A DNA stretch of 44,318 nt, from NCBI GenBank assembly GCA_945874125.1, contig CAMCFB010000006.1, positions 1 through 44,318 on the forward strand, read 5' to 3'. Origin of the DNA: Verrucomicrobia subdivision 6 bacterium. GTDB taxonomy: Bacteria; Verrucomicrobiota; Verrucomicrobiia; Methylacidiphilales; Verrucolacustridaceae. Numbering within the stretch: the first letter of the stretch is position 1; the number at the start of each line of letters is the position of its first letter. Shown one piece after another: positions 33,248 through 36,908 of the stretch. The notes beneath the pieces were generated by a model. That model searched no databases. It had not been told where the DNA came from and was given only the letters and a program-made list of their open reading frames with translations. The position numbers were made by a program, and so were the translations under genes.

Positions 33248-33469
33248 ATGACCACGGTGACAGTTTCCTCCAAATATCAGATCGTCATCCCGAAGGATGC
33301 TCGAAAAAAATTGGGGATTGTTTCAGGCACGAGATTGCAGGCCGTTCCGGACGGAGCGGGATTGCGTCTGATGAAAGAGCCTACGCTCGGCGAAATCCCT
33401 GGACTGCTGAAGGGAATGGCGGTTGACGATGACGCGATTCGAGCTGAGAGGGATCGCCCAGTGCCGTGA
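33248..33469 (+). CDS. vapB: VapB-type antitoxin, AbrB/MazE swapped-hairpin fold
   Basis: A 73-residue DNA-binding antitoxin. The N-terminus is a typical SpoVT/AbrB hairpin (VTVSSKYQIVIPKDARKKLGI, then VSGTRLQAVPDGAGLRL). The C-terminal tail (TLGEIPGLLKGMAVDDDAIRAERDR) should wrap around the toxin. The toxin gene follows with a GTGA overlap, the usual arrangement for coupled synthesis. These antitoxins normally repress their own promoter as a complex with the toxin. Expect neutralisation of the neighbouring PIN ribonuclease. Confidence 0.9.
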   Translation: MTTVTVSSKYQIVIPKDARKKLGIVSGTRLQAVPDGAGLRLMKEPTLGEIPGLLKGMAVDDDAIRAERDRPVP

Positions 33470-33837
33470 TCGTTGTCCTGGATAGTTCGGGGTGGATCGA
33501 ACTGTTGAGCGGTTCAGCGAGAGCAAAGCTTTACCAACCCGCGCTTCGAGCGCAGAGGTTGGTGGTGCCAGCCATCGTCAGATATGAGGTCGGTCGATAT
33601 ACGCTAGCTCACGGTGGGGAGGATGCCCGCGGCCTTGCCTTGCGAGCCCTTTCCCGGTTTGAGGGTTGTCCGATCGATGAGACCCTGGCTGACTCGGCCG
33701 CTCTTTTGGCGGATCGGCACAAACTTTCCATGGCGGATGCACTGGTTTTGAGTGCGGCCCTGTCCTGCCAAGCGGAATTATGGACGCAGGATCAACATTT
33801 CGAGGGAATGCCGAGTGTTCGATTTTTTCGAAAATAA
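33466..33837 (+). CDS. vapC: VapC-type PIN-domain ribonuclease toxin
   Basis: A 123-residue PIN-domain endoribonuclease. The acidic cluster is visible: Asp6 in VVLDSSGWIELL, Glu in VRYEVGRYT (about 42), Asp in SMADALVLSAA (about 91), and the Asp of WTQDQHFEGM (about 109). All expected metal ligands are present, so it should be active. Translation starts at GTG, overlapping the antitoxin stop. The target RNA cannot be read from sequence. No mobile element flanks the pair. Confidence 0.92.
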   Translation: MIVVLDSSGWIELLSGSARAKLYQPALRAQRLVVPAIVRYEVGRYTLAHGGEDARGLALRALSRFEGCPIDETLADSAALLADRHKLSMADALVLSAALSCQAELWTQDQHFEGMPSVRFFRK

Positions 33838-33930: not shown

Positions 33931-35451
33931 ATGGTTTCTCGATTCTTCCAAGTGGGGCTTCTCTTTTTGCTTCCGCTTCTGTCCGGTTGTGGGAGGGGAG
34001 ATTGGCAGCTGTCCGCCGCCCGAAAAAACGTGGTCATGATCGAGGTTACCTCTCAAACATGGGATTATCGGCTGCCGTGGAATCCGGGGACCGTCAGCTC
34101 CGCCCGTGGAGCGGGCTTCGTCATTGATCGCAAGCGGATTGTGACGAATGCCCATGTGATCAGCGGAGCACGAAATCTCACGGTGCAGCGGGAGGCGGAT
34201 CCCCGAAAATATCCGGCCAAGGTGATCTTTGTCGCCCACGATTGTGATCTGGCGATGATCGAGGTGGAGGATCCCGAATTTTACAAGGGGACGACTGATT
34301 TGCAGTTTGGCGAGATCCCAGATCTGGAATCGGTTGTCAGCGTGTACGGATTTCCCATCGGGGGAGATCGGTTGACCGTAACCCGGGGGGTGGTGAGCCG
34401 AATCGACTACAATTCCTATACGCACTCGGGCCGGGAGTCGCACTTAGCCATTCAAATCGATGCCCCAATCAACCCTGGAAATAGCGGGGGACCGGTGATG
34501 CAGGACAATCGGGTGGTGGGGGTGGCCTTTCAGGGCTTCCGAGGCGATGTGGCACAAAATGTGGGCTATATGATTCCGACTCCGGTGATTCGGCGATTTT
34601 TAAAAGATGTGGAGGATGGAAAGTATGATCACTATGTAGATATCGCGATCCGTTGGATGCCTCTCGAAAACCCAGCGATGCGAAACTACTACCAGCGTCC
34701 CAATGATGGCTTAGGGGTAGTGGTGACTGACGTTTATTCGGAAGGATCTTCGGACGGGGTGCTGGCAAAGGGAGATGTGCTCCTGGCCATCGATGGGCAT
34801 CCGATTGAGAGCGATGGATCGGTGCGGTTGGACGGACAACCGGTTCAGTTGGAAGAGATCGTGGAGCGGAAGTTTGCCGGTGACACAGTCGGGCTGGAGG
34901 TATGGCGAAATCAGAAGATGGAAAAGAAAACCATCACCCTTCGACCGGCGGAAATGTTTTCGATGTATGAAAGTTTATACGAGGAGCCCCCGCGTTATGT
35001 TTTGTATGGCGGGCTGGTTTTTCAGCCTTTGACGGCAAACTTAATGGCCGTGCTGGTCTCGAATGCGGATTTGCGCCTGCGTCAGACGTACACACTGTTT
35101 GGGCAAGATCAGCTGTACCGAGAGACACCTGAGCCGGTGATCTTGTCGTCCGTTCTTCCCGATCGGTCGAATGTGTATTTGACCGGTTTGGCGGGTCAGG
35201 TGGTCCGGGAAATTAATGGGAAACGAATTCGCACGCTGGCGGATGTTCTGCCTGCGTTAGAGTCGGGCGGGGAGAGGACGGTGATCCGCTTTGAGGGGGA
35301 TCAACGCCCGGCCGTCCTAAAGAAGAGCGAGGTGGATCAAGTGATGCCCAGGATCATGACGCAATATGGCATCTCTCAACCTCATCGCACGGAGTTGGGG
35401 GGACGTCGGTTAGCCAAGGGGTCGTGGAATCGTGACGGAGAGGCTAAGTGA
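33931..35451 (+). CDS. HtrA/Deg-like serine protease, lipoprotein, with PDZ-like domains
   Basis: A 506-residue trypsin-fold protease. The N-terminus is a lipoprotein signal with lipobox LLSGC. The triad is His in IVTNAHVIS (about residue 74), Asp in AHDCDLAMIEV (about 107) and Ser in NPGNSGGPV (about 186). A PDZ domain follows at about 245-335 (GDVLLAIDGHPIESDG) and a second PDZ-like part at about 390-460 (LAGQVVREINGKRIRTLADVL). The order recalls plant Deg9-like and bacterial HtrA-like proteins. The frame begins at a TTG at 33922, but the ATG at 33931 is more likely although its Shine-Dalgarno is close. The stop overlaps the GTG start of a paralogue that has lost the triad. Confidence 0.9.
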   Translation: MVSRFFQVGLLFLLPLLSGCGRGDWQLSAARKNVVMIEVTSQTWDYRLPWNPGTVSSARGAGFVIDRKRIVTNAHVISGARNLTVQREADPRKYPAKVIFVAHDCDLAMIEVEDPEFYKGTTDLQFGEIPDLESVVSVYGFPIGGDRLTVTRGVVSRIDYNSYTHSGRESHLAIQIDAPINPGNSGGPVMQDNRVVGVAFQGFRGDVAQNVGYMIPTPVIRRFLKDVEDGKYDHYVDIAIRWMPLENPAMRNYYQRPNDGLGVVVTDVYSEGSSDGVLAKGDVLLAIDGHPIESDGSVRLDGQPVQLEEIVERKFAGDTVGLEVWRNQKMEKKTITLRPAEMFSMYESLYEEPPRYVLYGGLVFQPLTANLMAVLVSNADLRLRQTYTLFGQDQLYRETPEPVILSSVLPDRSNVYLTGLAGQVVREINGKRIRTLADVLPALESGGERTVIRFEGDQRPAVLKKSEVDQVMPRIMTQYGISQPHRTELGGRRLAKGSWNRDGEAK

Positions 35452-36908
35452 AGCATTTTGGGATCATTTTTGTTTTTTGGGCGATGGCAGGGTTGCTTTG
35501 CGCGGAGGAGGATAGTTCGCGGGGCTCTCTCGTCCGGGTGAGGGCATCGATTCAGCCTTACGATCAGTTTCGGCCGTGGCAGAAGAAGTCCCCCTACGGA
35601 TTGAATGGGACGGGGGTCGTTCTGCCTGGTGGGAAAGTCTTGGCCACGGCTGCTCTGGTTGCGAATCGCACGGAGGTGGGGTTAGAGAAGCCAGGCTCAG
35701 CCGAAAAATGTGCGGCGGAGGTAGAGGCAATCGATTACGAAGCGAATCTGGCGCTTTTGCAGCCGGTCGATCGAAACTTTCTCAAAGGTTTTTCAGGGCT
35801 GGCTCTGGGACCCGCGTTGCGGGCGGGGGATAAAGGGGAGGTTTGGCAGTTGGAAAGGAATGGGGAGATGTTGCGAAATCAGGCGGAAATTCTGTCGACG
35901 GGGGTGGGGCGATATCCGTCGGATGAGGCGGGTTTTCTGGTCTATGGGGTGCGTGTTTCTCTGCCGAAAAGAGATGACAGTTACACTTTGCCGGTGCTGA
36001 AGGATGGTCAGTTAGTCGGGATGATGATGGGCTATGATCGGGACTCGCAAGAGGGGAGTGCGATCCCTGTGCCGATGATTGAGCACTTTCTCAAGGACGC
36101 AGCGGATGGAAAGTATGAGGGGTTTCCCACTTTAGGGGTGAGTTGGAGTCCTTTGCGGGATCCGAATTTGCGGGAGGAAGTGAAGGCTCCGAAATCGGGC
36201 GGGCTTTTGTTGACGCGCGTTAACCCGAGGGGGACGGCGGGCAGGGCGGGGCTGCGCGAGGGGGATGTGTTGATCAGCGTGGATGGATTCAAGCTGGATG
36301 AGGACGGGAATTATCGAGACCCCCTGTACGGGCCCACGGCAGTGGGGAATTTAATTCGAACTCGTCCCACGGTGGGTTCCCCGGCGAAGTTTCGAATTTC
36401 TCGTGGGGGCAAGGAGATGGAGTTGGCGGGAACTTACGATCGGCGAGCGCGGGATGAGGTGGCCATCCCGACCCTGCAGTTCGATCAAGCGCCGAAGTAT
36501 TTCGTGGTCGGCGGGCTGGTTTTTCAAGAGTTGACCGGAGCGTACCTCCAGGAGTGGGGGGACAAGTGGTCGGAGCGGGCGCCGCAACGGCTGGTAGAAT
36601 ATTTCACCTTTCAACAGGACAAAAGGCCTGACCCTGAGAAAAAGGTGATTTTTTTGAGTCAGGTTTTGCCTTCGCCGATCACGCTCGGGTATCAGCAGCT
36701 ATCCGGTTTGGTTCTGGTGAAGCTGAATGGGAAAGAGATTCATGATTTGGCGGAGCTGGCCAAGTGCATCGATGAGACCAAGACGGGGAATTTAGTGTTT
36801 GAGTTTCGGGATGAGCCCGGGAAGTTGGTTCTCCGGGCGGAGGATTTGCCCGCCGTCTCGGAAAAGATCGGACAAGCGTACGGGTTGCCTGCCTTGCGGC
36901 GTCTGTAG
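35448..36908 (+). CDS. HtrA-like pseudoprotease with PDZ-like domains, paralogue of the upstream protease
   Basis: A 486-residue exported protein that follows the upstream protease in layout over its whole length but has no catalytic triad. The NAHV position reads TAALV, the HDCDLAMI position reads DYEANLAL, and the GNSGGP position reads RDDSYTLP. The signal peptide is short (MKHFGIIFVFWAMAGLLC). A well-formed PDZ domain lies at about 240-320 (GTAGRAGLREGDVLISVDGF) and the second PDZ-like part at about 395-465 (LSGLVLVKLNGKEIHDLAELA). Shared blocks such as GGLVFQEL versus GGLVFQPL and FLKDAADGKYEG versus FLKDVEDGKYDH show common origin. The GTG start overlaps the upstream TGA (GTGA), which points to stoichiometric synthesis. 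Likely a regulatory or structural partner of the active protease. Confidence 0.87.
   Translation: MKHFGIIFVFWAMAGLLCAEEDSSRGSLVRVRASIQPYDQFRPWQKKSPYGLNGTGVVLPGGKVLATAALVANRTEVGLEKPGSAEKCAAEVEAIDYEANLALLQPVDRNFLKGFSGLALGPALRAGDKGEVWQLERNGEMLRNQAEILSTGVGRYPSDEAGFLVYGVRVSLPKRDDSYTLPVLKDGQLVGMMMGYDRDSQEGSAIPVPMIEHFLKDAADGKYEGFPTLGVSWSPLRDPNLREEVKAPKSGGLLLTRVNPRGTAGRAGLREGDVLISVDGFKLDEDGNYRDPLYGPTAVGNLIRTRPTVGSPAKFRISRGGKEMELAGTYDRRARDEVAIPTLQFDQAPKYFVVGGLVFQELTGAYLQEWGDKWSERAPQRLVEYFTFQQDKRPDPEKKVIFLSQVLPSPITLGYQQLSGLVLVKLNGKEIHDLAELAKCIDETKTGNLVFEFRDEPGKLVLRAEDLPAVSEKIGQAYGLPALRRL

Follow-up and report, generated by a model that had tools for sequence, protein, structure and literature searches.

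The window (the whole stretch of DNA analysed, 44,318 nucleotides of contig CAMCFB010000006.1 from a Verrucomicrobia subdivision 6 bacterium) contains two adjacent genes for HtrA-like proteins, A and B, which look like descendants of a single Deg2/Deg9-type HtrA protease gene that was duplicated long ago. As read from the aligned sequences, the decay of the two copies is reciprocal: B is without the active site, and A is without a Gly-Tyr pair and further residues belonging to the consensus of its C-terminal PDZ domain. On balance, we favour a mixed HtrA machine: cutting would fall to A, and B would serve in non-catalytic substrate handling or assembly.

Gene A (33931..35451, forward strand; assigned by its open reading frame, Pfam and sequence matches to a structure database) encodes a predicted exported Deg2/Deg9-type HtrA serine protease of 506 aa, starting at ATG 33931 or possibly at TTG 33922, with the frame open to 35451. 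Numbered from the ATG, the catalytic residues located by sequence and alignment are His75 (34153..34155), Asp106 (34246..34248) and Ser185 (34483..34485, within GNSGG), all on the forward strand, and the N-terminus carries a lipobox, LLSGC, within LLPLLSGC; the complete triad and the lipobox attributed to the first gene in a preliminary description of this DNA are thus both present. A passes the Pfam cut-offs for Trypsin_2, PDZ_2 and PDZ_3, and shows the layout of the Deg2/Deg9 type (S1C), in which a trypsin-like domain with His-Asp-Ser is followed by a PDZ domain and then by PDZ_3 (PF17815), the latter lying C-terminally at 34972..35385 (forward strand; Pfam, alignment) and being devoid of the Gly-Tyr signature. 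By sequence, plant Deg2 and Deg9 are the nearest solved structures.

Gene B (35448..36908, forward strand; open reading frame, Pfam, sequence match, AlphaFold model) starts with GTG at 35448 and encodes a full-length HtrA pseudoprotease of 486 aa with an N-terminal signal sequence, 26% identical to A across nearly the whole length. Ala69 (35652..35654), Asn100 (35745..35747) and Tyr179 (35982..35984), all read on the forward strand from sequence and alignment, occupy the positions of the catalytic His, Asp and Ser, and Pfam gave no trypsin-family match in B; cut-offs were passed for PDZ_6, PDZ_2 and PDZ_3, the last (36465..36893, forward strand; Pfam, alignment) being C-terminal and containing the ancestral Gly414-Tyr415. 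The earlier claim that the second gene has lost all three catalytic residues while retaining both PDZ-like parts and an intact frame is borne out by these data. B matches Arabidopsis Deg2 (4fln) over its full length (residues 26-484, E 4.8e-39), and plant Deg2 and Deg9 are its nearest solved structures both by sequence and by fold. The AlphaFold model has a mean pLDDT of 75.8 and a pTM of 0.64, with most of the fold confident, and was built on an alignment of 15 B and 10 A sequences, so the predicted fold is partly informed by A. Compared with Deg9/Deg2 as a whole chain, the model gave a Foldseek E of 1.8e-35 and, with VIA-align, a Z of 29.8-29.9 over 437-445 residues at an rmsd of 8.6-8.9, a high value meaning that the placement of domains differs or is unsure. 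B, having no catalytic triad, stands outside the active members, and its full-length similarity in sequence and fold, PDZ_3 included, is that of an inactive homologue of the Deg2/Deg9 type.

The junction between the genes is the GTGA stop/start overlap at 35448..35451 (forward strand), as had been described, and overlaps of this kind recur in relatives: in 38 of 70 tandems, the start of B and the stop of A share 4 bases or 1 base, and in all 70 A is the upstream gene, with both genes on one strand. The genome of the window has these two copies only. Scans for promoters and terminators stayed at chance level. Of the flanking-gene clusters found in at least three genomes, the 14 listed first did not extend beyond the window's genus or family f11, bar one distant phosphoglycerate-mutase match; no conserved functional neighbour besides the pair itself was found among them, and gene context therefore gives no hint at a substrate. 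Between upp and gene A, the window has a gene for a MazE/AbrB-type antitoxin (33248-33469) and one for a PIN-domain protein (33466-33837), which share a GTGA overlap of their own. Linkage of the pair can be lost with both genes kept, as in one genome (G268) where A and B are retained on separate contigs, far from the contig ends. A looser and crude lipobox scan (the strict pattern missed the window's own A, with its Pro in the core) placed the motif on A for the genus of the window and, for some other families (e.g., in G021, G030 and G167), on B; by this crude pattern, to which we give no weight as evidence, the membrane anchor may have switched between the partners across families.

A survey within Verrucomicrobiota, in line with the earlier proposal to look for the tandem in other members of the phylum, returned 70 A-B tandems in 22 family codes, seven two-copy genomes of the f11 genus being left out of this count; a tandem found again and again, at 70 examined loci, is more than a chance arrangement. 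B was matched at E 0.001 or better in 45 of 60 relatives, weaker matches being general HtrA proteins. The second gene is not generally missing in close relatives, a possibility raised at the outset: 17 of 20 genomes of the same genus have B, and the other three, which are MAGs of 63-80% completeness, are without A too. Two loci filed under Candidatus Paceibacterota and Akkermansia muciniphila carry the window-genus pair at 85-88% identity, and are probably mislabelled MAGs. More broadly, PDZ_3 was found in 90 of 240 genomes sampled across the phylum and in 159 of 286 genomes of the class (144 with at least two copies, 15 with one); 127 of the 286 class genomes gave no PDZ_3 match, so the function must be dispensable or replaced in many lineages. 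In 12 of the 15 single-copy class genomes, the one copy is a third, active paralogue. The remaining three are G388, with B at a contig end, G441, with a distant relative that could not be placed, and G473 (93% complete), the sole case seen of A without B, where the gene downstream of an intact A is histidine-kinase-like and PDZ_3 has no second match. Judging by the gene content of G473, A may work without B. The third active PDZ_3 HtrA paralogue, recorded at 13 loci, forms its own clade in the class and is set apart by its motif around the catalytic Asp (e.g., APGIDLAVLK).

The two genes differ in the state of the triad. His-Asp-Ser is present in the first gene of 70/70 tandems, and in 72/72 A rows when unlinked and contig-cut copies are included. 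No B row has an intact triad (0/74, one of the rows being truncated ahead of the His and Asp columns); 67 have no catalytic residue and seven keep one. The Asp position of B is Asn in 61/74 rows and its Ser position is aromatic (Tyr, Phe or Trp) in 47/74, counts in which 18 of the rows belong to the window's genus and hence are not independent. An unrooted tree was built from 129 of 179 rows, after removal of near-duplicates (from the genus of the window and from family f11) and of some single-copy or partial rows. With each triad column and the three columns on either side of it masked, the 53 B rows make up one side of one branch with an SH-aLRT of 99. This grouping despite the masking is what suggests a single ancient duplication, and independent repeated losses of the triad are ruled out as the main story on the same grounds, though the branches of B are long and a contribution of long-branch attraction cannot be excluded fully. 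The A and B trees are mirrored (distance correlation of 0.889 in 52 genomes, a value that none of 1000 shuffles reached); shared species history, that is, vertical descent alone, would give the same mirroring. Single-type active relatives lie nearer to A than to B in the tree. One genome (G193) has a single-type copy alongside the tandem, and the single type may therefore be a third old lineage and not the unduplicated ancestor.

Reciprocity was assessed with profiles from 25 single-type active relatives outside the class, one of them the G193 row from a tandem-bearing genome, scored against 50 A and 50 B. The score of B exceeded that of A in 0/50 genomes for the protease domain, 3/50 for PDZ1 and 40/50 for PDZ_3, where the 50 genomes share ancestry and 40/50 is not a number of independent events. 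Consensus columns present in A and absent from B numbered 57 in the protease domain, five in PDZ1 and four in PDZ_3; those present in B and absent from A numbered one, none and 10, respectively. Gly414-Tyr415 (numbering of B) is found in 100% of the single-type relatives, in 94% and 96% of B and in 0% of A, and alignments place Gly-Tyr in the C-terminal PDZ domain of plant Deg2 and Deg9 as well, from which it follows that A has lost an old feature in its last domain and B in its first. The A of G473, which has no B beside it, reads NTYLMPF in the aligned PDZ_3 segment, also without Gly-Tyr, this being one case. Such a pattern could be carried further, to complementary degeneration into an obligate hetero-oligomer, with catalysis kept by A and the ancestral C-terminal PDZ signature by B, a version that we regard as conceivable and somewhat doubtful. 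If true, the two duties of an ancestral homo-oligomer were split so that neither subunit is fully functional alone, and many Verrucomicrobiota use the pair as their standard Deg2/9-type protease of the envelope. G473, with A alone, and the many genomes with no copy argue against a strict need for the pair.

Constraint is also distributed differently along the two proteins. Averaged across families (52 rows of each gene), conservation of the protease domain is 2.79 bits in A vs. 1.71 bits in B, that of PDZ1 is 2.08 vs. 1.88 bits and that of PDZ_3 is 1.88 vs. 1.82 bits; in B, constraint has moved from the protease domain to both PDZ domains. Conservation further delimits a B-specific PDZ1 motif at residues 284-295 (D284, G287, Y289, D291, Y/F294, G295; 36297..36332, forward strand), of which D284, Y289 and D291 are residues conserved specifically in B. 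A Pro-Trp segment near the N-terminus (P43-W44 of B) is kept in 51/52 B rows and 52/52 A rows. With constraint concentrated in its PDZ domains, a conserved PDZ1 motif of its own and an unlinked position in G268, B could be a stand-alone periplasmic PDZ adaptor or holdase, encoded in the same operon, which hands unfolded or C-terminally exposed proteins over from outside the oligomer of A; nonetheless, retention of the P43-W44 segment and of the full barrel fold goes beyond what an adaptor needs, and we judge this explanation unlikely.

The mixed machine that we prefer would operate as follows. A and B would be translated in sequence and then exported, coupled translation helping to fix the A:B ratio. 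A would be the catalytic subunit, and B, its triad lost early in a loss common to the families and its fold and both PDZ domains retained, would do a job that A alone no longer does well, such as substrate capture or assembly via the C-terminal PDZ domain; B might also activate A, as MamO does MamE. The working unit would be a mixed HtrA assembly, perhaps built from trimers that stack or mix by way of protease and PDZ contacts. The preliminary description had proposed a mixed oligomer in which the second copy senses or positions substrate. The part concerning substrate handling or assembly gains support from the shift of constraint to the PDZ domains and from the ancestral C-terminal PDZ residues kept by B; the physical association of A and B, their stoichiometry, substrates and activation are what we infer from sequence, and simple co-expression would also account for the conserved linkage and the mirrored trees. 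Dead subunits can poison the activity of mixed oligomers, and a ratio fixed by coupled translation would suit a B that acts as a negative regulator, entering A oligomers or competing for substrate so that A stays quiet until stress. We hold this to be improbable, as the residues that B retained and A lost are those of the ancestral C-terminal PDZ domain, which fit a needed contribution better than pure inhibition.

Smaller still is the chance that B took up a new ligand-binding function apart from the proteolysis by A, in the manner of MamO, whose metal binding serves magnetite and for which a di-histidine metal site is described (PMC4794232): that precedent and the polar or aromatic character of D284, Y289 and D291 lend it something, yet at 70 loci A and B are still neighbours despite changing flanks. 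Finally, the idea that B is a decaying pseudogene from a recent duplication, which could appeal to the missing triad and to one in-frame TAG in the B of G044 (a genome 87% complete, where the gene is broken or mis-sequenced), is contradicted by its single old origin across many families, by frames free of internal stops in the window's genus (0 in 17 A and 18 B) and by the purifying selection that had been proposed as a test of the second gene (median NG86 dN/dS of 0.067 for B and 0.060 for A in that genus, from 23 pairs per gene with a dS of 0.05-2). The dN of B is about 1.4 times that of A within the genus, B evolving about 1.4-1.5 times faster than A.

Among known systems, plant Deg2 and Deg9 are the nearest structures to A and B but are active eukaryotic enzymes, and we know of no dedicated dead partner encoded beside either. 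The value of the pair lies in its being old and spread over many families of one phylum, with single-type relatives that show the losses of each half, and for these reasons the question of why oligomeric proteases keep a dead subunit becomes directly testable; likewise, many proteins now recognised by their PDZ domains only would be probable partners of an adjoining protease. Plant Deg7, a fusion of an active and a degenerated protease with four PDZ domains, offers the same domain order as A followed by B, described for the Chlamydomonas protein as PD-PDZ-PDZ-PDia-PDZ-PDZ (PMC3473262), and is reported to trimerize via its degenerated protease domain (PMC4754418). The likeness is one of domain order: Deg7 joins both halves in one polypeptide, whereas A and B are two exported polypeptides, from two open reading frames in different frames with a 4-base overlap, each with its own PDZ_3 (PF17815). 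Plant Deg5 and Deg8 are two HtrA paralogues in one hetero-oligomer, described as a heterohexamer in which only recombinant Deg8 is active and both genes matter in vivo (PMC4754418); Deg5 retains its triad (PMC3640471) and is without a PDZ domain, the opposite of B, which is without the triad and has both PDZ domains.

The open-licence literature yielded no publication on this pair in Verrucomicrobiota (weak evidence of its being unpublished), and relative to that literature, an old multi-family pair with reciprocal loss is what we did not find in print. The principle of pairing an active with a dead copy is already known in bacteria from MamE and MamO, and the bacterial protease/pseudoprotease pairs that we found described have separate origins within magnetotactic groups. 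MamE/MamO is the closest functional bacterial precedent for A-B, being an active HtrA protease with a degenerate HtrA paralogue, in which MamE-dependent proteolysis is activated by MamO, whose L1 loop bears a bulky Trp (PMC4794232). Neither protein belongs with MamO by the NCBIfam model for it, which gave A 39.2 bits against a cut-off of 800 and listed no match to B. Unlike MamE/MamO, A and B are of the Deg2/Deg9 type with PDZ_3, share one ancient origin and show reciprocal loss in PDZ_3.
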